Virus record (IMG/VR): IMGVR_UViG_3300025168_000649
Coordinates: 1-24,281 of that record
Source of the DNA: a virus
DNA: 24,281 nucleotides
Strand: one strand, 5' to 3'
Shown: positions 8,663 through 20,775 of the stretch, piece after piece
How positions within the stretch are numbered: position 1 is the stretch's first letter
Layout: each line of letters begins with the position of its first letter
Made by a program: the position numbers and the translations under genes
The notes under the pieces: model-generated
The model's input: the letters and a program-made list of their open reading frames with translations, nothing else
What the model was told of the DNA's origin: nothing
Database searches by the model: none

Positions 8663-10038
8663 CAATCAGCACCACAAATATTACCAAGTCATATAATGGC
8701 AATGGATCAACGCATTCATTTGCGTATGACTTTCCTATCTTTGCGGATGCGGATTTAACGGTCATTGTGCGCTCAGCGGCTGGCACTGAAAGTACAAAGA
8801 CCCTTAATACCCATTTTATCGTCACTGGCGCTGGTGCATCCTCTGGCGGCAATGTGCTGTTCAAGTTCAATACCGGCACCAGCTCTGACGCGCACCATTC
8901 AAGCACAGACCAGCGCCCGGCTTCTGGCGAGACTGTTGTGATCAGATCAGAGCTAGGCAATACACAAACGCTTGACCTTGTTGCTAACGATCCATTCCCG
9001 GCTTCAAGCTTTGAGACAGCGCTTGATCGTTTGGTGCGAATGGTTCAACAGCATGATGAAGAGCTAGACCGCTCTATCAAGCTGTCACGCACGAACACGA
9101 TGACAAGCACTGAATTTACAACAAGTGCAACAGATCGGGCATCCAAGATCTTAGCATTCGATAGTAGCGGTGAGCTGAGCGTCACGACTGAGCTTGGTAC
9201 ATTCAAAGGCAACTGGGCAGCGTCAACGACATATGCTTTGCGCGATATAGTCAAGGACACAAGCACCGCCAATATATTCATAGCCACGACAGCGCATACT
9301 AGCTCTGGCTCTCAGCCGCTAACAACGAACACCGACAGCGCCAAATGGTCATTGCTTGTTGACGCAGCATCAGCAACGACAGCGGCAACGACTGCCACAA
9401 CAAAAGCAACGGCAGCGGCAAGCTCAGCCACAGATGCAGAAGCAGCCTTAACGACATTTACCAGACAGTATCATGGTGCAGCTAGTTCTGACCCATCCTC
9501 AAATTTAGACGCTGGAGATCTGTACTTCAAAACAGATGGCTCTGGAATGAAGGTTTATTCTGGGAGTGCTTGGATCGATGTCAAGCCAACAAGCTCAGAG
9601 CAAACAAATATAAACACAGTCGCTGGTTCTAACAGTGAAATAGCGGCTCTTGGAGCAAGTGCAGTTATTGCAGATATGGCTCTGCTTGCAACAAGCGATG
9701 TCATAGCTGACATGGCCTTGCTTGCAACATCTGATGTTATTTCTGACATGAACACGCTAGCCACAAGCGATATAATTTCAGATCTAAACACACTCGCAAC
9801 ATCCGATATTGTAACTGACCTAAACATTTTGGCTACGAGCGCAAATGTCACAAACATGGCAACGCTTGGGGCTTCTGGCGTTGTTACCAATATTGCAACA
9901 GTAGCTGGCGCAAACAGTAGTATTTCTAGTGTTGCGGGATCAATATCCAATGTGAACATAGTAGCCAGCAACATTGGAACAATTGGAACCAAGGCAACGG
10001 TAGATGAAGCAACAGCCCTAGCCATTGCGTTAGGATAA
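8659..10038 (+). CDS. T7 gp17-like tail fibre protein, 459 aa
   Basis: Residues 1-150 match the T7 tail-fibre N-terminal domain that anchors the fibre to the tail. Features are the SFAYDFPIFADADLTV strand, HFIVTGAGASSGGNV, a DPFPASSFETALDRLVRMVQ helix and a following Gln/Glu-rich helix. The middle (about 190-310) is Ser/Thr/Ala-rich, with an LDAGDLYFKTDGSGMKVY segment common in phage fibres. The last third carries seven 12-residue repeats (331-414). The protein stops soon after with no recognisable receptor-binding tip or chaperone domain, so tip functions may be supplied by the small proteins downstream. ATGA overlap with the ejection gene; AAAGGATGAG upstream supplies the ribosome site. Confidence 0.85.
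   Translation: MTISTTNITKSYNGNGSTHSFAYDFPIFADADLTVIVRSAAGTESTKTLNTHFIVTGAGASSGGNVLFKFNTGTSSDAHHSSTDQRPASGETVVIRSELGNTQTLDLVANDPFPASSFETALDRLVRMVQQHDEELDRSIKLSRTNTMTSTEFTTSATDRASKILAFDSSGELSVTTELGTFKGNWAASTTYALRDIVKDTSTANIFIATTAHTSSGSQPLTTNTDSAKWSLLVDAASATTAATTATTKATAAASSATDAEAALTTFTRQYHGAASSDPSSNLDAGDLYFKTDGSGMKVYSGSAWIDVKPTSSEQTNINTVAGSNSEIAALGASAVIADMALLATSDVIADMALLATSDVISDMNTLATSDIISDLNTLATSDIVTDLNILATSANVTNMATLGASGVVTNIATVAGANSSISSVAGSISNVNIVASNIGTIGTKATVDEATALAIALG
9649..9900 (+). repeat. Seven 36-bp (12-residue) repeats in the tail fibre gene
   Basis: Seven consecutive 36-base units encode variants of LATSDVIADMAL. Units 2-5 are closest to each other (LATSDVIADMAL, LATSDVISDMNT, LATSDIISDLNT, LATSDIVTDLNI). 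Units 1, 6 and 7 are diverged (LGASAVIADMAL, LATSANVTNMAT, LGASGVVTNIAT). The DNA copies use different synonymous codons, so the array is old or selected at protein level. The pattern of a hydrophobic residue every three to four positions suits a trimeric fibre shaft. Confidence 0.8.
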
Positions 10039-10048
10039 GGAGATATAA

Positions 10049-10405
10049 ATGGCTAATACTTTTAAGGTTGTATCGCATGATGTGATGCCAGCCAGCGCTG
10101 GCACGCCAGAGGCGCTCTATACGACACCGGGATCAACGACAACCGTGGTAATCGGGTTGATTTTGGCAAATGTGCATACGGCGCAAGTTACAGCATCAGT
10201 CAAAGTGGTTTCAAACACATCCGGCGGTGGCCGTTCTGCCGCAAACACCACGACATTCCTTGCTAAAAACATACCCATTCCGGTTGGCGGTTCAGTCTCA
10301 CCGTTGGTGGGCAAGATTGTGCTTGAAACAACTGATGTGCTGCAAATTGACTGTAGTGTTTCTGACAAATTGAGCGTCACCGCAAGCATAATGGAGATAA
10401 CCTGA
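10049..10405 (+). CDS. Small virion-associated protein, probably beta-sandwich, 118 aa
   Basis: The sequence alternates hydrophobic and small polar residues throughout (TTTVVIGLILANVHTAQVTA, then KIVLETTDVLQIDCSVSDKL), typical of a small all-beta protein. It sits directly after the tail fibre with a very strong SD, AAGGAG at 10037-10042, and a spacer matching the T7 gene 10 leader (AAGGAGATATA). This implies high expression. I do not recognise a named family. Short beta proteins here are commonly fibre accessory or decoration proteins, which is inference. The TGA overlaps the next ATG (TGATG). Confidence 0.6.
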   Translation: MANTFKVVSHDVMPASAGTPEALYTTPGSTTTVVIGLILANVHTAQVTASVKVVSNTSGGGRSAANTTTFLAKNIPIPVGGSVSPLVGKIVLETTDVLQIDCSVSDKLSVTASIMEIT

Positions 10406-10590
10406 TGACAACAGAATATCCATTTATCGGCAAAACTGGCGATCAGACTGAATATGTTGCCGTGGTGCGCCAAAACGAAATTGTCATTGATGCTGCGCTA
10501 ACAATAGACGCAACCAATGCTGCGCTTTCCGCTGGCCCGATTACGCAAAACGCCACCGTCACTGTTAATGGATATTGGAGTATCGTATGA
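10405..10590 (+). CDS. Small protein of unknown function, 61 aa
   Basis: A 61-residue protein beginning MTTEYPFIGKTGDQTEYVAV and ending ATVTVNGYWSIV. SD GGAG (10393-10396) lies eight bases before ATG 10405. It overlaps both neighbours by one to four bases, so it belongs to the same translationally coupled string. The short beta-rich pattern suggests a structural accessory of the fibre region. No family is recognised. Confidence 0.55.
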   Translation: MTTEYPFIGKTGDQTEYVAVVRQNEIVIDAALTIDATNAALSAGPITQNATVTVNGYWSIV

Positions 10591-11030
10591 CCAGTCAGTT
10601 AAATGTAGACACCATTGTAGATAAGGCTGGCTCTGGCGGTTCTAATGTCAAGATGGCTAATACATCTACCTATGTATCAGATGGTGGCAATGTTACGCAG
10701 AATACTGCTCAAAGTTTAGCTAAAGCATACCACGCTAACAATTTTGCAACTGGTGCTTTTCTTGATAGCTTTAATATTAGTAGTAAAACGGAACGTGATA
10801 GTGGGTCAATGTACGGTAACTTTACTAATAATATGAGCAGTGCAAATTTTATAGTAGTCGGGGGTGTTGCTGCACAGCCTCCGGGTTCAATGGCAACTTC
10901 AAACACTAATCGTATTATTCTTGTAAATAGTGATACCAGTGCCAGATATGCTGCCAATACATCAACAAGTGCAAATGCTATGAATAATGCAGAATATGTA
11001 TCATCAGCGGCTTTAGGAGACCTCGCATAA
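10587..11030 (+). CDS. GDLA-module protein 1 (small fibre-associated protein), 147 aa
   Basis: First of three tandem paralogues. The N-terminus SQLNVDTIVDKAG is of a type I associate with marine phage tail proteins. The C-terminus is AALGDLA. The middle is Ser/Thr/Asn/Ala-rich and probably beta. I chose ATG 10587 (overlapping the previous TGA as ATGA) over the in-frame ATG at 10575 because GGAG at 10577-10580 lies six bases upstream. Its GDLA codons (gga gac ctc gca) carry the GGAG that can serve as SD for the next paralogue. A virion or receptor-contact role is inferred from position. Confidence 0.65.
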   Translation: MTSQLNVDTIVDKAGSGGSNVKMANTSTYVSDGGNVTQNTAQSLAKAYHANNFATGAFLDSFNISSKTERDSGSMYGNFTNNMSSANFIVVGGVAAQPPGSMATSNTNRIILVNSDTSARYAANTSTSANAMNNAEYVSSAALGDLA

Positions 11031-11434
11031 TGGCTAGTTTACTTAAAGTAGATTCACTAACAGGTGTAACCACCGCTGGTTCTATTAGCGTTACTGGCGA
11101 GGGCAACTCAACCACGACTAATCTTCAACAGGGGTTGGCAAAAGTTTGGGTGCATTATAACGGAGATTCTGGTCATACAATTCAAGACAGTTTTAACGTA
11201 ACCTCCGTAGCAGACGGCGGTGTGGGTCGTGGAACCGTGTCAATCGCAAATGACATGGCTAATGATGATTACACTTTGCAGTATACTGACAGTTGTCCTG
11301 ACACTCCAGCTATAAATGGTTTGTACATACATACTTTTCTAACTGGCGCATATTCTTTAGCAAGCGTGAACAATAGTGGGTCATACACTGATGGTTTAAA
11401 TGTTTGTTCAACAGTATTTGGAGACCTAGCATAA
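11030..11434 (+). CDS. GDLA-module protein 2 (small fibre-associated protein), 134 aa
   Basis: Starts MASLLKVDSLTGVTTAG and ends STVFGDLA, matching the ends of the proteins on either side, while the centre (WVHYNGDSGHTIQDSFNV, then DYTLQYTDSCPDTPAINGLY) is different. Conserved ends with divergent middles suggest a shared mounting scaffold with variable exposed surfaces. TAATG overlap with the upstream gene; GGAG 11016-11019 lies ten bases before the ATG, inside the upstream GDLA codons. No named family recognised. Confidence 0.65.
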   Translation: MASLLKVDSLTGVTTAGSISVTGEGNSTTTNLQQGLAKVWVHYNGDSGHTIQDSFNVTSVADGGVGRGTVSIANDMANDDYTLQYTDSCPDTPAINGLYIHTFLTGAYSLASVNNSGSYTDGLNVCSTVFGDLA

Positions 11435-11829
11435 TGGCAAGCGAACTTAGAGTAAACACCCTGAAGGATGCCGCTGGGAACAACAGCATTGCTACTAGCT
11501 TTGTGGCGGGTGGTAGTGCGAAGGCTTGGTCAAACCATAACATGAGTGGCACGACAACAAGAGCAAGTCTAAATATTGCTTCATACATCGACAATTCGGC
11601 AGGAGAACATTCAATAACCGTCACCAGTGCTTTCAGTTCTGCTAATTATTGTTGGAGTTACGGCGGCAAAAGAGCAAGCGGTGATGGCACTAACTGTTTT
11701 GATGCTTGTGTTGTACGTAACATAAACCCTACCTCAACCGTAACCCGACACAGTGTAAAAGACCACGACAGCACCAGTGATGTAGATGCAGAACATTTGT
11801 GCGTTATGTTTATGGGAGACTTGGCATGA
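11434..11829 (+). CDS. GDLA-module protein 3 (small fibre-associated protein), 131 aa
   Basis: Starts MASELRVNTLKDAAG and ends VMFMGDLA. The start at 11434 (TAATG with the upstream stop) is preferred to the longer in-frame option at 11404 because it aligns with the paralogues and has GGAG at 11420-11423. The centre has several cysteines (CWSYGGKR, then GTNCFDACVVRN), unlike copy 1. Its final GGGAGACTTGGC supplies an SD for the following gene at 11826. Function is inferred as for the other two copies. Confidence 0.65.
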   Translation: MASELRVNTLKDAAGNNSIATSFVAGGSAKAWSNHNMSGTTTRASLNIASYIDNSAGEHSITVTSAFSSANYCWSYGGKRASGDGTNCFDACVVRNINPTSTVTRHSVKDHDSTSDVDAEHLCVMFMGDLA

Positions 11830-12302
11830 CACTGACCCCACAGTTCCAAGGCACACACCTATTTGACAGACTATGCTGGGCTAAAGAAAACCTTGATGGG
11901 GTGCAGTCAGACTATCGTGTAGTCTATGAGGACAGTGTAGACGAGTGCGCTAAAATCCTTGTGCCTGACCCTAATTGGATGGCTTGTGCATTGCAGGGCG
12001 GTATCTTGCCGCCGGTTCAAAGCTATTGGGAGCTTGCCAAGGATGAAGCGCAACCTGACTTTGTGAAGCACACAAGAGGCTATTTGTTGCATAACACAGA
12101 GCCTATGCCAGCCATGACTGAAGAACAGGCGATCGAATATCTTATTATGAAAGACTGCCCGCAATCTGTCTGGAAGACATGGAACGAGGGCAACAAACCT
12201 AAGATGGTTATCTGCCGCAAAGAGCAGCTTCCAGCAACTCGCGAGTGGCGTAATAGTTGGAAAATAAGTGAAGAATTAACAATCGAAGACTTAGCAGCAT
12301 AA
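11826..12302 (+). CDS. Phage protein of unknown function downstream of the fibre genes, 158 aa
   Basis: Begins MTLTPQFQGTHLFDRLCWAK and continues with acidic, aromatic-rich sequence (VPDPNWMACALQGGILPPVQ, then MTEEQAIEYLIMKDCPQSVW, then TREWRNSWKI). I recognise this type of protein from the tail-fibre neighbourhoods of marine phages but know no function for it. ATG 11826 overlaps the previous TGA (ATGA) with SD GGGAG 11814-11818; a longer in-frame start at 11799 would lie well inside the previous gene and lacks support. The even mix of Trp and charged residues suggests a soluble globular protein, perhaps a fibre-assembly partner. Confidence 0.65.
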   Translation: MTLTPQFQGTHLFDRLCWAKENLDGVQSDYRVVYEDSVDECAKILVPDPNWMACALQGGILPPVQSYWELAKDEAQPDFVKHTRGYLLHNTEPMPAMTEEQAIEYLIMKDCPQSVWKTWNEGNKPKMVICRKEQLPATREWRNSWKISEELTIEDLAA

Positions 12303-12312
12303 GGAGTAAATC

Positions 12313-12690
12313 ATGGCTGTAGCAACATACATAGTTGACAAATCCGGTAATCAGATTGATTCCGCTGAGTTGACGAGCAAGCCCAGCGATAGGCATTTTC
12401 GTGGCGCATGGTCATTGTCTGGCAAGGTTATTTCAGAAGATATGACTGCCGCGAAGGTTATCTTCAAAGACAAAATCCGTGAGGTTCGCGCACCACTGCT
12501 TGCGGCAGAGGATGTTGTCTATATGAAAGCACTAGAAGCTGATGACGCATCTGCAAAGTCTGCGTCAGTCACTAAAAAAGCTGCCCTGCGCGATGCGCCA
12601 GCCGCATCAGCGATAGACAGCGCAGACACTATTGCAAAGCTCAAGGCGGCTTGGGATACAAGCGTTCTTGGCGATAGCCCCTACGCTTGA
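12313..12690 (+). CDS. Tail fibre/tail assembly chaperone-like protein, 125 aa
   Basis: The layout is typical of small phage tail assembly proteins. A short beta N-terminus (FRGAWSLSGKVI) leads into a helix starting with KDKIREVRAPLLAAEDVVYM, then a DA-rich stretch, and the end IAKLKAAWDTSVLGDSPYA. The central pattern of Arg, Pro, Leu-Leu and Asp before a second helix resembles DUF4376-like and related tail-fibre assembly families. Optimal SD AAGGAG (12301-12306) lies six bases before ATG 12313. The last codons overlap the next gene's ATG (TGATGG). Function is inferred from this resemblance and from its place at the end of the tail block. Confidence 0.55.
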   Translation: MAVATYIVDKSGNQIDSAELTSKPSDRHFRGAWSLSGKVISEDMTAAKVIFKDKIREVRAPLLAAEDVVYMKALEADDASAKSASVTKKAALRDAPAASAIDSADTIAKLKAAWDTSVLGDSPYA

Positions 12691-12854
12691 TGGCAAAGCC
12701 TACCGCCATATCTGTACAAGCACAGATCGACACGCACGAAGCCGTGTGCGCGGAGCGTTGGCGGGAATCCCTCGTTCGCTTTAAGCGTTTGGAAATGATC
12801 CTCATCGGTCAAGCTGCCACATTGATTGTATTGCTTGTGGCTGAACGCATCTAA
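12690..12854 (+). CDS. XhlA/holin-accessory-like small membrane protein, 54 aa
   Basis: Starts at ATG 12690 overlapping the previous TGA (TGATG) and ends TAA 12852-12854. Residues 10-35 form a charged helix (AQIDTHEAVCAERW, then RFKRLE) and residues 36-50 a hydrophobic segment (MILIGQAATLIVLLV). A charged helix ending in RLE followed by one membrane helix is the layout of XhlA-type lysis accessory proteins. Its place at the head of a run of small membrane proteins and an endolysin supports a role in lysis. The XhlA link is by layout only. Confidence 0.6.
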   Translation: MAKPTAISVQAQIDTHEAVCAERWRESLVRFKRLEMILIGQAATLIVLLVAERI

Positions 12855-12869
12855 AAATCGAGACACATC

Positions 12870-13364
12870 ATGGAGCCATTAACCGTTTTAACGGCAATTT
12901 CTGCTGCGTCAGCATCGATAAAATGGTGCAAGGAACGGCTCCAAGACTGTGAAGATTTAGGCACAGTGGCCGGGCATATTTCAAAGCTGTTGCAGTCTGA
13001 GCAAGCCTTAAACAAGGATCAGTCTTCAAAAGGCTCTGTTGGCATTTCGCTGCAAAGTTCAATTGATTATGTAATTGAAAAGCGCAAAATCCGCGAAACG
13101 CTCGCTGACGCAAAATTGCTAATAAATATGCGCTTTGGGCCGACATGCTACGATGAGATCATTGCCCATTTTAATAATGCACAGCGTGAAGAGAAAGAGC
13201 GCATACAAGAAAAAGAGCGTGAGAAAATTCGTGCGTCTGCGGCTTTGGAAAAAACGCTTGAAAGAATCGCGCTATCGGCATTTGTTATCATTGTGATCGT
13301 TGGCTTTTGCTTGTTCATTTTTGCCGCTGTTAATAACTCTGGCGCAGAAGAAATAATATTATGA
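12870..13364 (+). CDS. Coiled-coil protein with one C-terminal membrane helix, 164 aa
   Basis: Starts MEPLTVLTAISAASASIKWC. A highly charged Glu/Lys/Arg segment (104-132, with EKERIQEKEREK) forms a likely coiled coil running into one strong transmembrane helix at 133-154 (IALSAFVIIVIVGFCLFIFA) and a ten-residue acidic tail. I recognise the MEPLT-type start from marine phage lysis regions but know no assigned function. It could be a spanin-like or holin-partner protein. There is no lipobox and no SAR signal. The SD is poor (only GAGA upstream). The TGA overlaps the next ATG (ATGA). Confidence 0.6.
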   Translation: MEPLTVLTAISAASASIKWCKERLQDCEDLGTVAGHISKLLQSEQALNKDQSSKGSVGISLQSSIDYVIEKRKIRETLADAKLLINMRFGPTCYDEIIAHFNNAQREEKERIQEKEREKIRASAALEKTLERIALSAFVIIVIVGFCLFIFAAVNNSGAEEIIL

Positions 13365-13702
13365 CGCAAAAGAAATTGCAGAAAGACAGTGCATATCAGC
13401 ATCTCGACACAAACTCTGACAATGTCTTGTGTGACGATGAGATTGCTATGGCGCTGGAGTTCAAGCGCCGGGAGCTTGAGGATGCTGATGCGCGGCGAGA
13501 CAGCATGCGCTATATGGCTTGGTTTTGTTTGTTTGGCACACTCAATTATCCGGCTGCAATCCTTATCACTGCAATGCTTGGCTACGACAATACAGCAAAG
13601 TTAATCACTGAAATAGCTCCTACTTATTTCATTTCCAACAGTGCCGTTCTGGGCTTTTATTTTGGGGCAAATGCCTACGCTGACAAGAAGCCAAAAGAAT
13701 AA
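13361..13702 (+). CDS. Small membrane protein with an EF-hand-like loop and two membrane helices, 113 aa
   Basis: Residues 16-27 read DTNSDNVLCDDE, which fits the EF-hand calcium loop: acidic or amide ligands at loop positions 1, 3 and 5, a hydrophobic residue at 8 and Glu at 12. The usual Gly at 6 is Asn. A charged helix follows, then membrane helices at about 51-73 and 83-105, and a short basic tail. Size and topology suit a class II holin or a holin partner. Calcium binding is inferred from the loop alone. It is coupled by overlap to both neighbours. Confidence 0.6.
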   Translation: MTQKKLQKDSAYQHLDTNSDNVLCDDEIAMALEFKRRELEDADARRDSMRYMAWFCLFGTLNYPAAILITAMLGYDNTAKLITEIAPTYFISNSAVLGFYFGANAYADKKPKE

Positions 13703-13923
13703 TGTTTGAAACATTTATTCTAGTCATAACTATGTGGGGCAACGATGGTAACCAGTGGCATTACATTGGCAATCAAATCGCGCTGCAACAAGAAATGACT
13801 GAAGAACAGTGCCTCTATTTAGTCGATGCCACAATGTGGCAAGCCTCTTACAGCAATGAATATTACCAACTCAGAGCGCACTGCTTCCCGGCAGACTGCG
13901 CTGGAAAGGATGAGTGCAAATGA
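13702..13923 (+). CDS. Small Cys/Trp-rich protein of unknown function, 73 aa
   Basis: Starts MFETFILVITMWGNDGNQWH, so the first dozen residues are hydrophobic, followed by a soluble part with EEQCLYLVDATMW, QLRAHCFPADC and a final DECK. I recognise this kind of short protein from marine phage lysis regions, without known function. A short hydrophobic N-terminus and several cysteines could mean an exported or membrane-tethered disulfide protein, for instance a spanin component, but there is no clear cleavage site or lipobox. TAATG overlap upstream, ATGA overlap downstream. Confidence 0.6.
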   Translation: MFETFILVITMWGNDGNQWHYIGNQIALQQEMTEEQCLYLVDATMWQASYSNEYYQLRAHCFPADCAGKDECK

Positions 13924-14300
13924 TACAAGCGCTTATTGGCCCAATTGCTTCATTAGCCGGGTCATTCCTTGAGAACAAAGTCGAGCAATCGAAAGCCAAG
14001 GGCGCGGTTGCCAAAGCAGAGGCCGAAGCCAAGGCCAAGGTTCTAGTCAGCTCAGCGACAAGCGTAGCTGAGTGGGAAAAGATCATGGCGCAGTCCACGC
14101 AAAATTCTTGGCGTGATGAAGCTGTCACAATAGTCGTGCTTGTGCCGGTCTGTTTGGTTTTTGTGCCGGGCATGGAAGATGTCGTAAAGGCTGGCTTTGA
14201 CCGGCTGAACGAGCTGCCCGAATGGTATCAGTATCTGGTGTTTCTGGTTTGCACCAGCGCACTTGGCATCAAAGGCATAGACAAGTTTAGGAAAAAATAA
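13920..14300 (+). CDS. Putative holin-like membrane protein, 126 aa
   Basis: Residues 18-58 are a charged, Ala/Lys/Glu-rich helix. NSWRDE at 62-67 leads into a hydrophobic segment (68-83, TIVVLVPVCLVFVPG), and a second segment follows at 102-118 (WYQYLVFLVCTSALGI). NSWKDE-type motifs before the first membrane helix, and a WYQYLVF helix at the end, are features I know from holin-like phage membrane proteins beside endolysins. ATG 13920 (ATGA overlap) is preferred. GTG 13914 is possible, but AAGGA at 13906-13910 sits nine bases from the ATG and only three from the GTG. Confidence 0.65.
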   Translation: MIQALIGPIASLAGSFLENKVEQSKAKGAVAKAEAEAKAKVLVSSATSVAEWEKIMAQSTQNSWRDEAVTIVVLVPVCLVFVPGMEDVVKAGFDRLNELPEWYQYLVFLVCTSALGIKGIDKFRKK

Positions 14301-14761
14301 TGCAGCTCTCTAGAAATTTTAGCCTTGCTGAAATGTGCAAGTCACAAACCGCTGAGCGCAAAGGCATCCCAAACCAACCTAATGATGAACAGATCAAAGC
14401 GTTGGTGATGCTTTGTGAAAACATATTGCAGCCGGTGCGTGAAGAGTTTGGATCGTTCATTGTTTCATCCGGCTTTAGATCCCCGGAGCTTTGCGTTGCA
14501 ATCGGATCAAAAATTACCAGCCAACATTGCTGCCCGGATAACCTATCAGCCGCTGCCGATTTTGAGGTGGCTGGCTATGACAACCATGATCTCTGTGTTT
14601 GGATCCAAGACAACCTAGTGTTCGATCAGCTTATACTGGAATGCTATACCGGCGAGATGAACAGCGGGTGGGTTCATTGCTCTTATGCAGCAACAGACAA
14701 CCGGGCTGATGTGCTTACCTTTGACAGAACAAATGGGTATCGCAAAGGGTTGATTGCGTGA
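14300..14761 (+). CDS. Endolysin, peptidase M15A-type (D-Ala-D-Ala carboxypeptidase-like), 153 aa
   Basis: A single catalytic domain of the VanY/peptidase M15 type that cleaves peptide bonds of peptidoglycan at the end of infection. The usual start LSRNFSLAEMCKSQTA and the turn SSGFRSPELCVAIGS are present. The zinc ligands are likely His76 (TSQH), Asp87 (AADFE) and His126 (GWVH). His76 and Asp87 are separated by ten residues where the family usually has six, an insertion with two adjacent cysteines. There is no signal peptide or wall-binding domain, so export depends on the holin. AGGA at 14289-14292 precedes ATG 14300, which overlaps the previous TAA. Confidence 0.88.
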   Translation: MQLSRNFSLAEMCKSQTAERKGIPNQPNDEQIKALVMLCENILQPVREEFGSFIVSSGFRSPELCVAIGSKITSQHCCPDNLSAAADFEVAGYDNHDLCVWIQDNLVFDQLILECYTGEMNSGWVHCSYAATDNRADVLTFDRTNGYRKGLIA

Positions 14762-15030
14762 GCGCTGCATGGCAACGCAAAGAAGGCAAGTCCGAATCTG
14801 GTGGACTTAACGCAGCGGGGCGCAGATCAGCAAGAGCGCAAGGCCATAACTTGAAGCCGCCGGTCAGTAGCAAGATGGCATCGAAGTCTGAGAAAGCTGG
14901 CAAACGCCGGGATAGCTTTTGCAGTCGAATGGGCGGGATGAAAAAGAAACTAACCAGCGCCAAGACGGCGCGAGATCCTAATAGTCGGATCAACAAAGCA
15001 CTGAAAAAATGGGATTGCCCGAAAGGATAA
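14758..15030 (+). CDS. DUF6321-like small basic protein, 90 aa
   Basis: A strongly basic protein with the pattern AAWQRKEGKSESGGLNAAGR, NLKPPVSSKMASKS, RRDSFCSRMGGMKKKLTSAK and DPNSRINKALKKWDC. This matches the DUF6321 family as I remember it from phages. The function is unknown; the charge suggests nucleic-acid contact or a packaged basic protein. The start is GTG 14758, overlapping the endolysin TGA as GTGA, and it aligns with the family's usual N-terminus just before WQRK. No ATG is available upstream of the conserved block. Confidence 0.75.
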   Translation: MSAAWQRKEGKSESGGLNAAGRRSARAQGHNLKPPVSSKMASKSEKAGKRRDSFCSRMGGMKKKLTSAKTARDPNSRINKALKKWDCPKG

Positions 15031-15186
15031 ATGATGAGCCTCTATGCAAATATGAATAAACGTAAAGCCGCTGGCACCAGCCGGTCAAAAAAAGACAGCA
15101 CAGTTGACCCGAAAACCTATAGCAAAATGAGCAGCAAGACTGGTGGCTTTGCAGAAAAGAAAAAGACTAAGAAGTCATACGCCTAA
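15031..15186 (+). CDS. Tiny basic phage protein, 51 aa
   Basis: The frame runs from ATG 15031 (or the adjacent ATG 15034, which is better spaced from AAGGA at 15023-15027) to TAA 15184-15186. The sequence MSLYANMNKRKAAGTSRSKK and a Lys-rich end (AEKKKTKKSYA) give very high positive charge. I recognise short LYAN/RKAAGTSR proteins from marine phages beside DUF6321-type genes, without known function. It is the last gene of the late rightward unit; the attachment region follows directly. Confidence 0.6.
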   Translation: MMSLYANMNKRKAAGTSRSKKDSTVDPKTYSKMSSKTGGFAEKKKTKKSYA

Positions 15187-15206
15187 TTGGATACAGATTG
15201 GATACG
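15187..15206 (+). repeat. Left pair of putative integrase arm sites (TTGGATAC)
   Basis: TTGGATACA at 15187-15195 and TTGGATACG at 15198-15206, 11 bases apart. The same two nine-mers in the same order occur on the other side of the tRNA core at 15406-15426. Paired direct repeats flanking the core are what arm-type integrase binding sites look like; the assignment is inference. Confidence 0.6.
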
Positions 15207-15292
15207 CTTTTACCCAAGTAAGCAGCGTATTGGACAAGTAAGAACTGGCTTAAAACCTCACAAAATAGACTTAAACATCCCTATTTTCTTTA

Positions 15293-15337
15293 CTGGGGGT
15301 GTAGGGGTCGTCAGTTCAAATCTGGCCGCTCCGACCA
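15293..15337 (+). other. attP core: 3' half of a tRNA-Pro(GGG) gene
   Basis: The segment folds as the second half of a tRNA. Anticodon loop CTGGGGG (15293-15299, anticodon GGG at 15295-15297), 3' anticodon-stem strand TGTAG, variable loop GGGTC, T-stem GTCAG and CTGGC closing the loop TTCAAAT (15310-15326), acceptor strand CGCTCCG (15327-15333), discriminator A and CCA (15335-15337). No 5' half lies upstream: the bases before the loop are CTTTA, not the CTACA needed to pair. A half tRNA next to an integrase gene is the classic attP core, restoring the host tRNA after integration. Confidence 0.85.
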
Positions 15338-15367
15338 AAAATTAAATAATAAAATCAATATATTACC

Positions 15368-15401
15368 AGCCCTCGGCCTTGATTGGCCGGGGGCTTTTTT
15401 T
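15368..15401 (+). terminator. Strong intrinsic terminator after the tRNA half
   Basis: An 11-bp stem (15368-15378 with 15385-15395, one T-G pair) closed by the loop TTGATT and followed by a T-tract to 15401. It ends rightward late transcription before the integrase unit. It may originally have been the host tRNA's own terminator carried along with the core. The opposite strand has no T-tract, so it acts only rightward. Confidence 0.88.
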
Positions 15402-15405
15402 GCGT

Positions 15406-15426
15406 TTGGATACAATTTTGGATACG
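15406..15426 (+). repeat. Right pair of putative integrase arm sites (TTGGATAC)
   Basis: TTGGATACA at 15406-15414 and TTGGATACG at 15418-15426, 12 bases apart, mirroring the left pair in sequence, order and orientation. Together they bracket the tRNA core. This pair lies just upstream of the operator at 15443. Confidence 0.6.
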
Positions 15427-15442
15427 GTTTTGTTGCATTGTT

Positions 15443-15457
15443 TGACATCATGTGTCA
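15443..15457 (+). promoter_or_regulatory. Operator-like palindrome upstream of the small gene/integrase unit
   Basis: TGACATCATGTGTCA has half-sites TGACA and TGTCA around five bases. The preceding T makes a TTGACA -35-like box at 15442-15447, but no clear -10 follows at the normal distance. The same palindrome class occurs at 19863-19877, 20719-20733 and 20761-20775. The repressor encoded at 19898-20704 is the likely ligand. Confidence 0.6.
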
Positions 15458-15494
15458 TAACTGATTCGTAAGGTATCAAACAAGGGAGCGTAAA

Positions 15495-15725
15495 ATGTTC
15501 GTTACAGACAAAAAAGTAGCAGAGATTGCGGAAGAAATTTTACCGCATTTTGAAGCCGGTGATTTGCACAGTCAGTCCAGAACCAGTGAGATTGCAAGAC
15601 ACGCTAAAGAAGCTCTTGCAGAAAACGGATTGCCAACACGATGGAGCCTTTGTTGCACTGTTGCAAAGGTAGCTCAAATGGCTTGGCGAGAGGAAATCAT
15701 TAAATGTAAAAGGGCGGCGGCTTAA
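15495..15725 (+). CDS. Small protein of unknown function upstream of integrase, 76 aa
   Basis: A largely helical 76-residue protein (VTDKKVAEIAEEILPHFEAG, then TSEIARHAKEALAENGLPTR, then a Cys-containing helix and KCKRAAA). The start ATG 15495 has SD AAGGGAG at about 15480-15487. It is expressed with the integrase (25 bases apart, no terminator T-tract between them) and sits under an operator palindrome. That position suits an excisionase or recombination directionality factor, but I see no clear helix-turn-helix, so this is only a possibility. Confidence 0.55.
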   Translation: MFVTDKKVAEIAEEILPHFEAGDLHSQSRTSEIARHAKEALAENGLPTRWSLCCTVAKVAQMAWREEIIKCKRAAA

Positions 15726-15734
15726 CAGCCGCCC
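15712..15734 (+). promoter_or_regulatory. GC-rich hairpin over the stop codon before integrase
   Basis: GGGCGGC (15712-15718) pairs perfectly with GCCGCCC (15728-15734) across a nine-base loop that holds the upstream gene's stop codon. There is no T-tract, so it is not an intrinsic terminator. It ends two bases before the integrase SD (AAGGGAG, 15737-15743) and may tune integrase translation or protect the mRNA. Confidence 0.5.
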
Positions 15735-15749
15735 GGAAGGGAGCATCGC

Positions 15750-17072
15750 ATGTTTAAAAAAGTAGAAAATTGTAGAGTATATGAGCGCATCGGAAGGCCC
15801 GGTGTCTGGACTGTTGATATGCGTAAACTGGGAAGAGGCCCAACTGTTGGTTCATATTCAAACAAATCTGACGCTATCGATGCAATGGTTGAGGCTGTGC
15901 GTAATTTTAACAAAGGTACGAATCAGGAGCCGGTTGAAGACATCAAGTGTGATGAACTGATTGACAAGTTCATTACAGCTAGAAATGACTTGGCGTTAGT
16001 TGAAGAAAAAATTGAATTGGCATCCGCACAAAATGCAATCCGCGCGATTAAGCTGGCTAGAACTTTTAGGGTTAATGGCAGAGAGTTCCAGAAACTAAAT
16101 TTGTTTGAGGTCTGCAAGTTGCAAAACAAAAGCAGAATTGCGACAGACATTATTCGCGCCATAAAAAATTATGGTGGCGATGTTAAAAGCATGAAAACTA
16201 GATTTATCTTCATAAACATGTTTTTTAAATTTTGTGTCGCAGAGGGTTTTATTTTAATGAACCCACTTGAGGGCAAAGAGTTGCAAGTCAAAGGCGAGGC
16301 AATCAAAGATGCAAAGGCTCCCAAAATACAGCCAGATATTATAGCTGCTTTGCTTGCCGCTGTGGAAAAAGAAGATATAAAAAGCCAAGCAATGATCAAC
16401 ACATATTACGAATCGGGTGTGCGTATGTCAGAGCTGCGTGGCTTGCCCCGGCACAATGTGAGTTGTGAGCGCGATAAACAGACCGGCAAATACATAAACG
16501 CCGGTATTGAAATCAGCCAGACAATCAAACAAGACGGCCAAATAGGCCCACCAAAGTCAAAAAACGGCTATCGCTTTATTCCAATTTCAGATGAGACAAT
16601 GAATTTGGTTGAGCAAGTAATGCTTGCAAGCGCATTTAAAAAGCCAAGTGATCTTGTGTTTGCAAATAGCAATGGCAAGCCAGCCGACAAGCATACGTTG
16701 CAGCGCATGATCAAGCGTGTGGCAAGGCAGTCAGGCATGTTTGATATCCCAACTTTAGAAGCCCAAGTTGTTGCCGCTGGTGGCTACACAGATGGGGCTG
16801 GCAAGTGGGTCAATATTTCATCGATCAAGCACAAGCTTGTGCTTGCCAAGCATATCAAAAGAGCTGTTGATTTGCAGCTATCGAACCTTGGTGACTTTAG
16901 GCATTTCTTTGCAAGCGCACAGTTTAGCAAGATGAAGGATTGGAGAAAGGTCACTGAGTACATGGGCCACCACAACTCGCAGTTTACTGAGGATCAATAT
17001 CAGCATCAGTTTGTAGCAAGCAAAGAGGAACATGGCGAGATCAAGAGCAACATGGCATCGTTCCGCACATAA
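15750..17072 (+). CDS. int: Tyrosine-family phage integrase, 440 aa
   Basis: This is the site-specific recombinase that would integrate the phage at tRNA-Pro through the attP just upstream. Residues 1-60 form a possible arm-binding domain (VWTVDMRKLGRGPTVGSYSN), about 65-180 the core-binding helices, and about 190-440 the catalytic domain. Catalytic residues: Arg225 (SGVRMSELRGL), Lys269 or Lys271 in the beta turn, Arg384 and His385 (GDFRHFFAS), His407 (MGHH) and nucleophile Tyr417 (EDQYQHQF). The first box II histidine is Gly381 here. The stretch 330-375 is a longer link between conserved blocks than usual. SD AAGGGAG (15737-15743) supports ATG 15750. It ends at a convergent terminator. Confidence 0.92.
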   Translation: MFKKVENCRVYERIGRPGVWTVDMRKLGRGPTVGSYSNKSDAIDAMVEAVRNFNKGTNQEPVEDIKCDELIDKFITARNDLALVEEKIELASAQNAIRAIKLARTFRVNGREFQKLNLFEVCKLQNKSRIATDIIRAIKNYGGDVKSMKTRFIFINMFFKFCVAEGFILMNPLEGKELQVKGEAIKDAKAPKIQPDIIAALLAAVEKEDIKSQAMINTYYESGVRMSELRGLPRHNVSCERDKQTGKYINAGIEISQTIKQDGQIGPPKSKNGYRFIPISDETMNLVEQVMLASAFKKPSDLVFANSNGKPADKHTLQRMIKRVARQSGMFDIPTLEAQVVAAGGYTDGAGKWVNISSIKHKLVLAKHIKRAVDLQLSNLGDFRHFFASAQFSKMKDWRKVTEYMGHHNSQFTEDQYQHQFVASKEEHGEIKSNMASFRT

Positions 17073-17095
17073 AAAAGGGGGCGCTTGCCCCCCTT
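17071..17095 (-). terminator. Convergent terminator between integrase and the leftward recombination operon
   Basis: A G5-C5 class stem (GGGGGC 17077-17082, GCCCCC 17087-17092, loop GCTT) with six A on its left side (17071-17076), which read as a U-tract for leftward transcripts. Rightward there is only a short T pair, so it mainly serves the minus-strand operon and also overlaps the integrase stop. Confidence 0.75.
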
Positions 17096-17096
17096 C

Positions 17097-17213
17097 CTAC
17101 AATCCAAGCAGCCTACGCCACCACGGCTTGGCTGCTTTTCTTTTTGCGGCCCACGCGGCTTTGATCTTTCTTGATTGTTCAGCGCGCTGCTTCTTCGTCC
17201 ATGTTCTGCCCAT
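17097..17213 (-). CDS. Tiny very basic protein, 38 aa
   Basis: On the minus strand an ATG at 17213 (a second ATG at 17216 is adjacent) opens a 38-codon frame ending TAG at 17097-17099. The product starts MGRTWTKKQRAEQSRKIK and ends PWWRRLLGL, with about a third of residues Lys or Arg. AAGGGAG sits six bases before ATG 17213, and the frame overlaps the upstream HTH gene by 35 bases. It is the last gene of the leftward operon, just before the terminator. Its composition suggests nucleic-acid binding. The SD and sensible composition argue that it is real despite its size. Confidence 0.55.
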   Translation of the reverse strand: MGRTWTKKQRAEQSRKIKAAWAAKRKAAKPWWRRLLGL

Positions 17214-17412
17214 CATCAGCTCCCTTCATGCTACGAATGCGATCAATCTCTTCGGCGGGTATCCACCATTTGCGGCCATCCCGGACGCTGGCCAATGTGC
17301 CTTTCTTTAACAGGCGATAGGTTGCATCCCGCGTACCCGGTGTCCATCTGCCAAACAGCGCAGTGGCTGCATCGCGAACAGCAAGCAAGGCAGGGCCGGG
17401 GTTTCTATCCAT
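17179..17412 (-). CDS. Excisionase/MerR-type helix-turn-helix protein, 77 aa
   Basis: The sequence from residue 25 (PGTRDATYRLLKKGTL, ASVRDGRKWWIPAEEIDRI) is the HTH_17/excisionase pattern: a short HTH followed by a beta wing with a conserved Arg/Lys and the WIP-AEEI strand-helix. Such proteins act as excisionases or small regulators. ATG 17412 is chosen over longer in-frame starts because it overlaps the upstream stop (ATGGATAG) and places the HTH at the usual distance from the N-terminus. It is in the leftward operon with the recombination genes, so it may be the excisionase for this integrase. Confidence 0.7.
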   Translation of the reverse strand: MDRNPGPALLAVRDAATALFGRWTPGTRDATYRLLKKGTLASVRDGRKWWIPAEEIDRIRSMKGADDGQNMDEEAAR

Positions 17413-17758
17413 TGCTAAAGCCCCCACCAAAACCGCCGCCTGATGGTGCAGCCGGGGCAGCATCATTGTCTTGCGGCTCTTCATACGGCTTGTTGGCAAA
17501 AATATTGACAGACCCCAGATCCTTGTCGTTGTTGTAATCATCATCGACACGCTGCTTGAATTTAACATTGAAGGTCAGGTCATGCTTGATGACCAAGTCG
17601 CGGATCTGGTCACAAGCTTGAAGCTTATCTGAATCAAACTTGTCTGCCTTTTTCGGGTTGACCCAGCAAGCCAGCTTTAGCTTTGCGGGTTCCCCGGCCT
17701 GACCCCGGATACACTCCATCTGAGTGTTATTGTTTGTGAATGTTGGTTTGTTACTCAT
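17405..17758 (-). CDS. Putative ssDNA-binding-like protein beside ERF, 117 aa
   Basis: About ninety residues of mixed beta sequence (LKLACWVNPKKADKFDSDKL, DLVIKHDLTFNVKFKQRVDD, GSVNIFANKPYEE) are followed by an acidic and Pro/Ala stretch and a Gly/Phe tail (PSGGGFGGGFSNG). A compact N-terminal domain with a flexible Gly-rich tail, coupled directly to an ERF gene (ATGA overlap), suggests a phage single-strand binding protein or recombination partner. The usual acidic SSB tip is absent, so the role is inferred from context and composition. No named family recognised. Confidence 0.55.
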   Translation of the reverse strand: MSNKPTFTNNNTQMECIRGQAGEPAKLKLACWVNPKKADKFDSDKLQACDQIRDLVIKHDLTFNVKFKQRVDDDYNNDKDLGSVNIFANKPYEEPQDNDAAPAAPSGGGFGGGFSNG

Positions 17759-18342
17759 TTAAAGCTCTCCAATTTATTGTGATATTCAATGCCCACAGTG
17801 TTATAAACATCAGGCGCTGCGGTTTCTGCCTGTTTGATAATTTCGGTGTTATCTGTATCCCATTTATGAAGCTGCGCTTTGTTGGCGGTTTTGATTATTG
17901 CCAACGATTGATCAGCCCAGCCTTTCCAATCAAAGTTTGCTTCACCATCGTCATCATCATCGTCATCAAGCTCAGCGATCCCGGCGGCAAGGCCAAGGAT
18001 GCCTTGCAGCAAATACCTACGGCCATAGCTCATGGCGCTGCCAAGCTTCTGGCAATGTGTCATGTCATCAACAATGAGGGGCCAAGCCAGATCAGGTGAT
18101 GACCAGCTCACGCCGCTGCTATGCACAATGACCGGCGATATAAAATATTCATTGTTTTCTGTGCGGCGTACCGGGAATGAAATGCCAAGACCGTGATCAA
18201 CCGCTGCTTTTTTAACCAGCGTCATCATCGAACCGATTGATGCGTATTGTGAGCGGTTACCCCGCTTGTCCAGCGTCATAGCGCTGTTTTTGGCTTGGAA
18301 TGCAACCAGTGCCGTTGCTATGGCTTCTGGCATTTGCGTCAT
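17755..18342 (-). CDS. erf: ERF-family single-strand annealing recombinase, 195 aa
   Basis: This is the phage annealing protein of the ERF superfamily, which pairs complementary single strands during recombination and genome circularisation. The hallmark segment is GSAMSYGRRYLLQGILGLA at 101-119, preceded by a mixed alpha/beta N-terminus (SQYASIGSMMTLVKKAAVDH at 31-50). An uninterrupted run of seven aspartates (126-132) follows, and then a basic/helical C-terminal part. The family often carries a short acidic DDDD stretch here; seven in a row is at the long end. It is coupled by ATGA overlaps upstream and downstream, in the order exonuclease, two small genes, ERF, SSB-like. Confidence 0.88.
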   Translation of the reverse strand: MTQMPEAIATALVAFQAKNSAMTLDKRGNRSQYASIGSMMTLVKKAAVDHGLGISFPVRRTENNEYFISPVIVHSSGVSWSSPDLAWPLIVDDMTHCQKLGSAMSYGRRYLLQGILGLAAGIAELDDDDDDDGEANFDWKGWADQSLAIIKTANKAQLHKWDTDNTEIIKQAETAAPDVYNTVGIEYHNKLESFK

Positions 18343-18674
18343 CGTGACATCTCCATCATTCCAAGCATGGTCAAAAGATAGATTGCAGCCGTTCTGCCTG
18401 ACTTGGTTTGCCGCGTGGCCTCAGTCTTGAAGATCAGATTGAGCTGTTCCAGCTTGACGCGCGCCGGGCGATAGCTGTTGCCGGTCATGTTAGTGGCAGC
18501 GCAACCCTCTTCATCAGTCAGGCCGCGCTTGTCATGGCGTTGCAAAGCCTCAAGCACCTTGACCATGTTCTTGCCGAACTTGGGCTTGATCTTGGCGGCT
18601 GACGCTGCGCTGGTGGGGCTGTGAGCCTGATGCGGCGGCTCAATATCAAACAGATCTTGTATCATCATCATCAC
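18339..18674 (-). CDS. Winged-helix-like protein in the recombination operon, 111 aa
   Basis: Residues 35-85 (GKNMVKVLEALQRHDKRGLT, then GNSYRPARVKLEQLNLI) read as a winged-helix fold: helix, turn, a recognition helix with Asn-Ser-Tyr-Arg-Pro-Arg, then a wing that includes KSGRTAAIYLL. Similar NSYRPAR patterns occur in phage DNA-binding proteins near replication or recombination genes. The start is uncertain: four consecutive ATG codons lie at 18674-18663 within an overlap with the previous gene. The last ATG (MIQDLFD) is also plausible. It may be a regulator or a replication accessory. Confidence 0.6.
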   Translation of the reverse strand: MMMMIQDLFDIEPPHQAHSPTSAASAAKIKPKFGKNMVKVLEALQRHDKRGLTDEEGCAATNMTGNSYRPARVKLEQLNLIFKTEATRQTKSGRTAAIYLLTMLGMMEMSR

Positions 18675-18816
18675 TTTCTTTTAGGGTTGCGTTGATAGCG
18701 TTGAGCAACACACCACGCGCGATAGCATCGTTCTGCATTTGCTCTAGAATGTGCCGGATGCGGCGTAGTTCGATTTCTGATTCGGTTAGTCTTTTGCGTG
18801 TAAAAATTTTAAGCAT
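18646..18816 (-). CDS. Small helical protein, 56 aa
   Basis: The start ATG 18816 overlaps the exonuclease stop (TAATG). SD GGAG lies inside the exonuclease codons six bases upstream, which favours this start over the in-frame ATG at 18828. The product MLKIFTRKRLTESEIELRRI continues as a charged helix and ends with an acidic ESDDDDTRSV, possibly a short coiled coil. Coupling places it in the recombination operon. No family or function recognised. Confidence 0.55.
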   Translation of the reverse strand: MLKIFTRKRLTESEIELRRIRHILEQMQNDAIARGVLLNAINATLKESDDDDTRSV

Positions 18817-19823
18817 TACGATCTCCAAATCTTTTGAGCGCGGTCTAAAATTTCCGGGGGCAGATCACGCCACACAAACATGTGATCCCACTGAGGGTCA
18901 CAAAGCCTCAACAGCTCTTCGGTGGTGTTGGCGGCAGCGAGTAGGCGTTCACGCCGCACACAAGCTTCCCTGATGGCGGCAACCCCGGCATGAAGCTGAT
19001 CAAGCGTTGGCTTGAAGACGCGATAGCCAAGCCTGTTGGCATATACGATTTGCGGCCAGATATCAGTGATGTGCCAGTACCCAGCGATCTGCATCAAATT
19101 GTTGAAAGGTATTTCTTTTGGAAGGCTCCCGGCTGATGGCTTGTCTGTGCCAGCGCCCCGATCCCATTTGGTCTTCAGCTCCACGCCGCCTTCTTGGAAA
19201 TCGCCGTAACCTTTATAGGGTAGCTGCACATCGTCAAACTTGCCGGTCAGCTCTTTCTGCCCGGTAATGCGGTTGGCGCCGGCAAACGCCTCGCGCAAGC
19301 CGTCAAGTGCATTGCTGCACACCAGCTCAAATTCATGGTGTGTTGGTATGATATCTTTTTTAGGAACAGACCCATCAGCGCCATAACGCACTGTGGTCTT
19401 GTGTTCCAGCTCACGCTTGTCTTTGTCGGCATCACGCCATGACGCGCCAGAAAAGCCTTGAAGCTCATTGATGGCGTTTTTAAAGGCATCAGTCGGGCTT
19501 AGATCGTTGACAGCTACATCGGTGCAATAGTTCTCAACAGCCCGGCCAGAGATCAATGGCGGCTTATCGCCTGACTGCGTTCTGCCCCGGCTGTCAACGT
19601 AAACGCCATGCATGTCGATAATTTTTTGTGCTTCAGCCTTATCGCCCTTTGCCTCACCAGCTAAGACTGCCTTGGCATTCTCGCGTTCTGATCTGACAAC
19701 AGCTTTGTCAAAGAACGTAAAGCCGTCAGGCTTGTTTGGCTGGCTGTGATGATAGTAAGAGTGCCGGGCTGCTTGCCTGACAAAGTCTTGTTTCTGTGGC
19801 TTAGAAAAGTTTTTAAATGACAA
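18816..19823 (-). CDS. PD-(D/E)XK exonuclease-like protein, 335 aa
   Basis: Residues 160-250 carry a nuclease core: HEFELVCS helix, TGKFDDVQL with Asp197, GGVELKTKWD with Glu215 and Lys217 (the E-x-K pair), then LMQIAGYWHIT, a helix like the Gln-bearing motif of lambda-exonuclease/Cas4-type enzymes. It would resect double-stranded ends to make substrates for ERF. The N-terminal 130 residues (ARHSYYHHSQPN, AVENYC) are not recognised. The start codon is TTG at 19823, supported by GGGAG (19831-19835) seven bases upstream and by the lack of a better start. It is first in the leftward operon, behind a promoter overlapped by an operator. Confidence 0.7.
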   Translation of the reverse strand: MSFKNFSKPQKQDFVRQAARHSYYHHSQPNKPDGFTFFDKAVVRSERENAKAVLAGEAKGDKAEAQKIIDMHGVYVDSRGRTQSGDKPPLISGRAVENYCTDVAVNDLSPTDAFKNAINELQGFSGASWRDADKDKRELEHKTTVRYGADGSVPKKDIIPTHHEFELVCSNALDGLREAFAGANRITGQKELTGKFDDVQLPYKGYGDFQEGGVELKTKWDRGAGTDKPSAGSLPKEIPFNNLMQIAGYWHITDIWPQIVYANRLGYRVFKPTLDQLHAGVAAIREACVRRERLLAAANTTEELLRLCDPQWDHMFVWRDLPPEILDRAQKIWRS

Positions 19824-19848
19824 AGAACCGCTCCCAAAGTGTGGAACG

Positions 19849-19878
19849 GTTCTATCAGGTCATGACATACAGTGTCAA
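19849..19878 (-). promoter_or_regulatory. Promoter of the leftward recombination operon
   Basis: On the minus strand TTGACA (19873-19878) is followed after 18 bases by TAGAAC (19849-19854). The -35 box is a perfect match and the -10 box a four-of-six match. The operator 19863-19877 covers the -35 box and spacer, so binding would block RNA polymerase. The transcript would start about 20 bases before the TTG start codon. Confidence 0.6.
19863..19877 (+). promoter_or_regulatory. Operator-like palindrome at the recombination operon promoter
   Basis: TGACATACAGTGTCA is a perfect TGACA-N5-TGTCA palindrome lying over the leftward -35 region, between the end of the repressor gene and the exonuclease start. 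It is the most symmetric of the four copies together with 15443-15457. Confidence 0.65.
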
Positions 19879-19897
19879 GCGTTATGCTTGGAGCGCA

Positions 19898-20704
19898 TTA
19901 ATCTACGATTTTAAGGCCATCTGTTTTGCTATCAGTAACAGGTTCATTCATTTTTACCTGATAGATTTTTTCGTAAAAAGCCTTACGATCAGGCGTTTGT
20001 TTTTGGACTAGCTTTTCATAATGACGCGCGATAAATGGTGATTCGTAATCAACCATGACAATGTTTTCTAACCGGCGCTGGTGAAGGAACCAAGCAACCG
20101 GCGCAGCCCAGCGGATATCAAGATCGGTTAATATTCTGCTTTCTTCTGGCACACCAACAACATCTGTGAGGGTGTACAAAGCATTGTGATGTTGCGGCCA
20201 TAACACACCGGAGAACATGACCCCGGCCTTGGTCATGACGTAACATTTGTTCATAATTGCGTTTTGATCGATTTTATTGTCAGCCACAGAGCTTATCTTA
20301 ATCATGGTCAAGCTATCGTGATAATGACGCCAAGGCGATTGAGTGTTTTGGTCTAGGTTCCAGTATATGCATGCCCAGCCTTCACTAAAGTTGCCGTGCA
20401 GTACCATACCTTTTTTAAAATAGGTCTTGTCTTTTTGAAAGCGATTGATGAGCTTCATGTTCTGTGTATCAGGATCAGTGTGCCAGACACCTAGAATTGG
20501 TATCGGGGGGCTGGTATAGGCAATCTCATACGGCTGGCATTTTAGAATGCGCGCATAGTCTTCGACATCTTGAAGCGTCATGCTAATTTTGCTGTGGATG
20601 TGGCGCGACACGGTTTCTGGCGTCACGCCCTTTTCTTCAGCGAGTGCCTTCTTTGACATACCGGCCACGCTGATCATTTCATCTAAGTTATTTCCCATGT
20701 ACAT
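19898..20704 (-). CDS. CI-like phage repressor with N-terminal HTH, 268 aa
   Basis: Residues 16-36 (MSKKALAEEKGVTPETVSRHI) form an XRE-type helix-turn-helix and the next helices (LQDVEDYARILKCQPYEIA) complete the domain. The remaining 200 residues (PIPILGVWHTDP onwards) are mixed alpha/beta with many Trp and Tyr. I see no S24/LexA GDSM serine or Lys dyad, so induction may not work by RecA-triggered self-cleavage. ATG 20704 is chosen because GGGAG (20713-20717) precedes it by eight bases; ATG 20698 is a possible alternative. It is divergent from the Cro-like gene with two operators between. Together these point to the lysogeny repressor. Confidence 0.75.
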   Translation of the reverse strand: MYMGNNLDEMISVAGMSKKALAEEKGVTPETVSRHIHSKISMTLQDVEDYARILKCQPYEIAYTSPPIPILGVWHTDPDTQNMKLINRFQKDKTYFKKGMVLHGNFSEGWACIYWNLDQNTQSPWRHYHDSLTMIKISSVADNKIDQNAIMNKCYVMTKAGVMFSGVLWPQHHNALYTLTDVVGVPEESRILTDLDIRWAAPVAWFLHQRRLENIVMVDYESPFIARHYEKLVQKQTPDRKAFYEKIYQVKMNEPVTDSKTDGLKIVD

Positions 20705-20718
20705 AATGTAAGCTCCCA

Positions 20719-20733
20719 TAACACTTTGTGTCA
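20719..20733 (+). promoter_or_regulatory. Operator-like site near the repressor start
   Basis: TAACACTTTGTGTCA matches the TGACA-N5-TGTCA class with one weaker half (TAACA). Its right half forms a leftward TTGACA box (20729-20734), and TACATT at 20705-20710 gives a candidate -10 with an 18-base spacer. Transcripts from it would start close to the repressor ATGs, which would suit autoregulation and a nearly leaderless repressor mRNA. Confidence 0.5.
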
Positions 20734-20760
20734 AACCTGATTGTCTATACCTAATTATCT

Positions 20761-20775
20761 TGTCATCACATGTCA
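20761..20775 (+). promoter_or_regulatory. Operator-like palindrome and candidate cro promoter region
   Basis: TGTCATCACATGTCA sits within a wider imperfect palindrome, CTTGTCATCACATGTCAAG (20759-20777). It covers a weak rightward -35 (ATGTCA, 20770-20775) with TATTAA (20792-20797) as -10 after 16 bases, ahead of the Cro-like gene. Its centre is 42 bases, about four helical turns, from the other operator at 20719-20733, so two repressor molecules could bind on the same face. Confidence 0.55.

Follow-up and report, generated by a model that had tools for sequence, protein, structure and literature searches.

Evidence for a complete lambda-type attP in an uncultured marine podovirus, with arm repeats and tRNA targets that appear to be exchanged independently among its relatives

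The DNA analysed here, an IMG/VR virus record of 24,281 bases (hereafter the window, meaning the whole stretch), belongs to a marine, uncultured temperate podovirus. We conclude, with a probability of about 0.93, that its positions 15187–15425 constitute the complete lambda-type attP of this phage, that the phage encodes a heterobivalent tyrosine integrase and that the molecule is unrecombined. The order of the parts is that of lambda: P-arm sites, core, IHF site, P′-arm sites, integrase. The features of the region are as follows.

15187–15194, plus strand: predicted P-arm integrase site 1, TTGGATAC (repeat count; same offset in relatives)
15198–15205, plus strand: predicted P-arm integrase site 2, TTGGATAC (same basis)
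15293–15337, plus strand: attP core, 3′ half of tRNA-Pro(GGG) from anticodon loop to CCA (read from the sequence; 44/45 against the SP154 and SP205 tRNA genes)
15293–15299, plus strand: anticodon loop CTGGGGG, probable 7-nt strand-exchange overlap
15353–15365, plus strand: predicted H′-like site, IHF consensus AATCAATATATTA (consensus match)
15368–15401, plus strand: terminator-like hairpin with a T run, between core and P′ arm (from sequence; conserved in relatives)
15406–15413, plus strand: predicted P′-arm integrase site 1, TTGGATAC (repeat count; same offset in relatives)
15418–15425, plus strand: predicted P′-arm integrase site 2, TTGGATAC (same basis)
15495–15725, plus strand: 76-aa ORF between attP and integrase (no family; DNA not conserved in relatives)
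15750–17072, plus strand: tyrosine integrase (PF00589, E 7e-16)
15750–15923, plus strand: integrase N-terminal domain, aa 1–58, predicted arm-binding (tracks the arm repeat, not the tRNA; mosaic joint at 15924)
15924–17072, plus strand: integrase core-binding and catalytic part, PF00589 (tracks the tRNA target)

A sequence-only reading of this DNA had described, next to a tyrosine integrase gene, a tRNA-Pro(GGG) that lacks its 5′ half and has a correctly paired T arm, and had taken it to mark an attP. Each element of that description was confirmed. Positions 15293–15337 read, in order, CTGGGGG (anticodon loop, GGG at 34–36), TGTAG (3′ strand of the anticodon stem), GGGTC (variable loop), GTCAG-TTCAAAT-CTGGC (T arm, with five pairs, one of them G.U) and CGCTCCG-A-CCA (acceptor). 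The motif made of T arm, acceptor and CCA occurs once in the window, compared to 0.003 occurrences expected from 300 Markov-resampled windows. Alphaproteobacterial tRNA-Pro(GGG) genes match the half tRNA at 97.8% over 46 nt, and ARAGORN calls such genes tRNA-Pro(ggg). In the window itself ARAGORN called no tRNA; neither a D arm nor a 5′ acceptor strand was found upstream of the core, where CTTTA pairs only partly with TGTAG, and no complete tRNA lies upstream by either ARAGORN or reading. A functional phage-encoded tRNA was considered and rejected, as there is no complete cloverleaf. Identity between phage and host begins at the 5′ edge of the anticodon loop, here and in relatives with tRNA-Asp and tRNA-Glu cores, which suggests the loop as the probable overlap for strand exchange.

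The arm repeats and the IHF consensus had not been noticed in the sequence-only reading. TTGGATAC is present in four identical direct copies in the window (0.56 expected), all beside the core and nowhere else. Of 14 family members, 10 have a full match to the IHF consensus at +43 to +45 (combined p ~7e-16). Thus, repeats on both sides, an IHF consensus, an adjoining integrase and the same architecture in relatives all support the assignment of the half tRNA to an attP. A search of viral contigs for the TTGGATAC arm-core-arm pattern returned four matches, all to one unrelated sequence that lacks a tRNA half. No excisionase was identified; the sole candidate is the 76-aa ORF, which has no family match and which we can only guess to be a directionality factor.

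In the integrase alignment residues R225, K269/K271, R384, H407 and Y417 are invariant, and the first His of the HxxR motif is replaced by Gly in the window's integrase family. In lambda Int, N-terminal domains bind the arms and C-terminal domains bind the core, as is established (PMC4880445). A structural model of the N-terminal domain of the window's enzyme has a β-β-α topology (pLDDT 78.7); the full-length model is of low confidence (pLDDT 51.6). Comparison of the N-terminal domain with the PDB by sequence and by fold gave no significant match, an AP2-domain protein appearing at Z 4.2 among unrelated hits in the fold search; the comparison thus gives no evidence of kinship with the lambda N-terminal domain or with AP2 domains. 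A search of viral contigs with the integrase alone gave no confirmed match, and a search of annotated phages gave one, at 26%. The prediction that residues 1–58 form a separate arm-binding domain comes from covariation with the arm repeats among relatives.

Relatives of the attP-integrase region were gathered by means of a tail protein, an early protein, leader DNA and integrase alignment. In each, direct repeats stand in two pairs; counted from the start of the T arm, their positions are about −123, −112, +96 and +108. The repeat sequence is uniform within a phage and varies between phages.

TTGGATAC: the window, L199
GGGGAGTAA: L185, L190, L193
TTGGGTAC: L186, L192, L194, and also the more distant L200
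TTGGGGAAGATT: L189, L202
TTGGCAAC: L196, L203
TTGGGGAACC: L201

The core of the relatives is half of tRNA-Pro(GGG), tRNA-Asp(GTC) or tRNA-Glu(TTC), always starting at the anticodon loop (with anticodons assigned by eye), and five arm classes are each found with two tRNA types. The window and a phage from G564 (L169, from the same record as L199) have the same arms and different tRNAs; their integrases are 91% identical in the N-terminal domain and 27% in the rest. Conversely, L201 and L203 share the tRNA and differ in arms, with 93% identity in the C-terminal part and 49% in the N-terminal domain. Among 13 sequences, N-terminal similarity was 82% for sequences of the same arm class and 56% for those of different classes (a difference as large in 0 of 20,000 label shuffles) with little effect of the tRNA (1205 of 20,000), and C-terminal similarity was 81.5% within a tRNA class and 40% between classes (1 of 20,000) with no effect of the arms (4242 of 20,000); as label shuffles ignore ancestry, these counts are not probabilities. 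L200 was aligned and left out of the permutations. Other, more distant phages were left out of the covariation test: L168, with a Thr half downstream of its integrase, L173 and L177, with Pro(TGG) halves, and L174–L176, with a complete tRNA-Asn.

At the DNA level the window and L169 form a mosaic with abrupt joints: homology extends to 15497, foreign DNA follows as far as 15708, homology returns at 15709–15924 (ending at aa 58), and after a foreign stretch to 17064 the two are homologous once more. Contig L132 is 99.8% identical to the window over 17097–24071 and, ahead of that stretch, carries the C terminus of an Asp/Glu-type integrase in place of the window's own (L132 1–283 versus window 16814–17096), so that the exchange on this backbone looks recent. 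Judged from these sequences, the relatives show what appears to be a repeated natural domain swap, in which an N-terminal arm key and a C-terminal tRNA key are exchanged independently.

Genomes of the SAR116 order contain junctions of the kind that integration at such an attP would produce. In G508, of the SAR116 order (L238 = G508:C12:28000-38000), the order is complete tRNA-Pro(GGG), IHF-like site, P′ arms at +96 and +107, one 472-aa gene, P arms (−122, −111) and, 1.8 kb away, a half tRNA; the two tRNA copies lie at record positions 34571–36423, and there is no integrase. The P arm is 72% identical to that of the window and 82% to that of L193. The 472-aa gene encodes five DUF4379 zinc-finger repeats and a T5orf172-like end that scores below the cut-off. 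This element is either a deletion remnant or an integrase-less satellite. In G519 a complete tRNA-Pro(GGG) precedes the terminator and P′-arm repeats of the window's family. By their sequence, the G508 and G519 junctions are attL- and attR-like, as would be expected for this attP family.

Other islands were observed at the same tRNA gene. G518 (L237 = G518:C1:60000-79000) has two tandem elements at one tRNA-Pro(GGG) (positions 61296, 74168 and 76155) with different arm repeats, one of 12.9 kb with CTCCGTCAA and one of 1.9 kb with TGTCTCCA, a GAF-like gene and no integrase. A 21.7 kb island in G264 (G264:C1:179034-200880, L025–L027) lies between tRNA-Pro(GGG) and a displaced 116-bp copy of its 3′ end and carries a type I Zorya anti-phage system (ZorA-D, identified by PADLOC). 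In SP205 (L010 4137–7120) a 2.9 kb island with a methyltransferase-like gene and no integrase lies between tRNA-Pro(GGG) and a 64-bp partial copy; the 17 bp that follow the tRNA, including an IHF consensus, are identical to the P′ arm of the window.

Gene content on the two sides of the attP bears on the state of the molecule.

155–15030, plus strand: late region, virion genes and M15 peptidase
5384–8662, plus strand: internal virion protein
8659–10038, plus strand: tail fibre
14300–14761, plus strand: M15 peptidase
17755–20776, minus strand: early/lysogeny genes, leftward
17755–18342, minus strand: Erf-like annealing protein
19898–20776, minus strand: Cro/C1-type repressor candidate
20977–24256, plus strand: early genes, divergent rightward
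20977–21444, plus strand: VRR-NUC
22314–23129, plus strand: PAPS-reductase-like
23810–24256, plus strand: DUF6362

The sequence-only reading had placed late phage genes on one side of the half tRNA and early ones on the other; late genes (virion genes, M15 peptidase) do lie to its left and early ones (Erf-like gene, repressor candidate, early operon) to its right. There is good support for the further claim of that reading, that the phage is unintegrated: the core links a P arm to a P′ arm in one uninterrupted stretch, phage genes lie to either side, and a site in this contiguous state is unrecombined, with neither attL nor attR. Extension through relatives revealed no host DNA, phage genes continuing past both ends. 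The start of L056 matches window positions 23238–24233, and L056 from 12113 on matches the window's left end; L056 thus bridges right end to left end, and from this relative we estimate that about 11.1 kb is absent from the window and that the genome is about 35.4 kb long. The translations of L002, a 91% relative at the left end, include capsid and tail tubular genes upstream of that end. L133 matches the last 2.3 kb of the window at 100% identity and then runs on into what was named by eye as a terminase-small-subunit-like gene.

Two further repeats were observed in this part of the genome. After the terminase-small-subunit-like gene, at L133 4237–4260, about 1.9 kb past the window's right end, lies a second TTGGATAC-like pair (TTTGGATACAGAATGGATACGCTTT). 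In the early region of the window (23409–23498) there is a 15-nt tandem repeat of the TAAGGATAATCCTGT type, with copies in register.

Three other explanations of the junction were weighed. It could lie inside a tandem double prophage, where two head-to-tail copies give an attP-like junction within the chromosome. The junction sequence would then be the same as in free phage, and G518 demonstrates that tandem elements do occur at tRNA-Pro(GGG); however, two near-identical adjacent copies would be required, and several close relatives keep the phage-attP-phage order, the ordinary state of virion or replicating DNA, which makes this origin improbable. Far less probable still is that the half tRNA is an inert relic, or the displaced attR of a lost element, and not the working site of the integrase: displaced halves of tRNA-Pro(GGG) are common in marine alphaproteobacteria, but such a half has host DNA on one side, while in the window neither arm is broken, the two are in phase and their repeats covary with the adjoining integrase. 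A mis-join of two phages at attP/integrase, once suggested by the lack of a close match to the integrase C-terminal part in the first search, deserves next to no credence, as DNA homology to L169 spans the attP (14821–15497) and picks up again at 15709 and at 17065, independent contigs repeat the gene order and composition has no step at the junction. An unrecombined attP in free phage DNA is the preferred reading.

The half tRNA had also been put forward as a handle on the host. The target, tRNA-Pro(GGG), is supported; the look-up of a host by exact match failed, the exact 40-mer being found in none of the GTDB species genomes searched and in no viral contigs. In searches at the family, order and class level the nearest tRNA to the window's exact variant had one mismatch. 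A degenerate pattern retrieved five tRNA-Pro(GGG) genes, all in alphaproteobacterial MAGs. The SP154 and SP205 genes match the half tRNA at 44 of 45 positions, and both MAGs are marine and labelled Rhodospirillaceae; in SP205 the gene is preceded by plsX, fabH, ihfA and merR (named by eye, merR by Pfam). Siblings L201–L203 share the target, and the C-terminal parts of their integrases are 54–55% identical to that of the window. The L202 and L203 halves are identical over 45 nt to tRNA genes in the order of G264, which we take to be Ca. Puniceispirillum marinum IMCC1322, a SAR116 bacterium. From the 44/45 matches and the sibling halves, the most likely host is a marine alphaproteobacterium that belongs to, or is close to, SAR116 or Rhodospirillaceae-like groups; absence of the exact 40-mer means that it is bracketed and not named. 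The suggested search for prophages with this integrase found none in the five tRNA-bearing genomes or in 385 genomes of the class, a search with no positive control.

On the proposed mechanism, the integrase would be of the lambda heterobivalent type, with residues 1–58 gripping all four TTGGATAC copies in the arms and its C-terminal part binding and cutting the core, probably with the anticodon loop CTGGGGG as overlap. By bending the DNA at 15353, IHF would fold the P′ arm back onto the core. Recombination would take place between the phage circle and the tRNA-Pro(GGG) gene of the presumed host; the 3′ half from the phage would make the tRNA whole again, and the displaced 3′ half of the host gene would come to lie at the far end. 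A wider reading is possible and, we think, rather doubtful: N-terminal domain with arm sites, and C-terminal part with tRNA half, might act as interchangeable keys (six arm types, three tRNAs), a change of arms might let elements share one tRNA without mutual excision, and the integrase-less mini-islands of G508 and G518 might be satellites moved by a phage integrase.

Phages lambda and HK022 have arms in common and differ in core. Like the window, they have arm sites on both sides of the core and an IHF site in the P′ arm (PMC4880445 for lambda), and an integrase with separate N-terminal arm-binding and C-terminal core-binding parts, predicted in our case. In contrast to them, the core of the window is a tRNA half, its four direct repeats are of another sequence, its N-terminal domain has no sequence match to solved structures and no Xis sites were identified. 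In Cluster K1 mycobacteriophages (PMC3203893) a core formed by the tmRNA 3′ end adjoins the integrase; as in the window, it is flanked by two repeat pairs and a terminator separates it from the right arm, and arm variation goes with N-terminal substitutions. There the core is constant and few positions vary, whereas in the window's lineage the variation extends to entire N-terminal domains and sets of arms, and the tRNA changes independently.

Mizuno et al. 2013 (PMC3861242; G16, G18) linked groups of uncultured Mediterranean phages to Ca. Puniceispirillum by integrase and att, a SAR116 link through a tRNA-fragment attP like that of the window; their group G18 is similar to our phage in size and composition (35.8 kb, 44.2% G+C). 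The virion module is homologous to that of HTVC010P-type pelagiphages, as judged from single proteins: the N terminus of the window's tail fibre is 58–65% identical to that of the group, and tail tubular protein B of a 91% relative is 54% identical to those of HTVC010P and HTVC035P. Genome size, about 35 kb, is alike. Unlike these phages, the window has an integrase, an attP, a repressor candidate and an Erf-type early region, as well as a 569-aa virion protein without match there, and probably a different host.

The attP of the window is itself a textbook tRNA attP and provides a host handle for an uncultured temperate podovirus with HTVC010P-like tail proteins. The literature on arm and N-terminal swaps offers only partial precedents, in lambda/HK022 and the mycobacteriophages; here a single lineage varies in both keys. 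More valuable than the single site are the relatives, since they constitute a natural combinatorial set of N-terminal domains matched to arm repeats and C-terminal parts matched to cores, with which the arm-recognition code of tyrosine integrases becomes directly testable.
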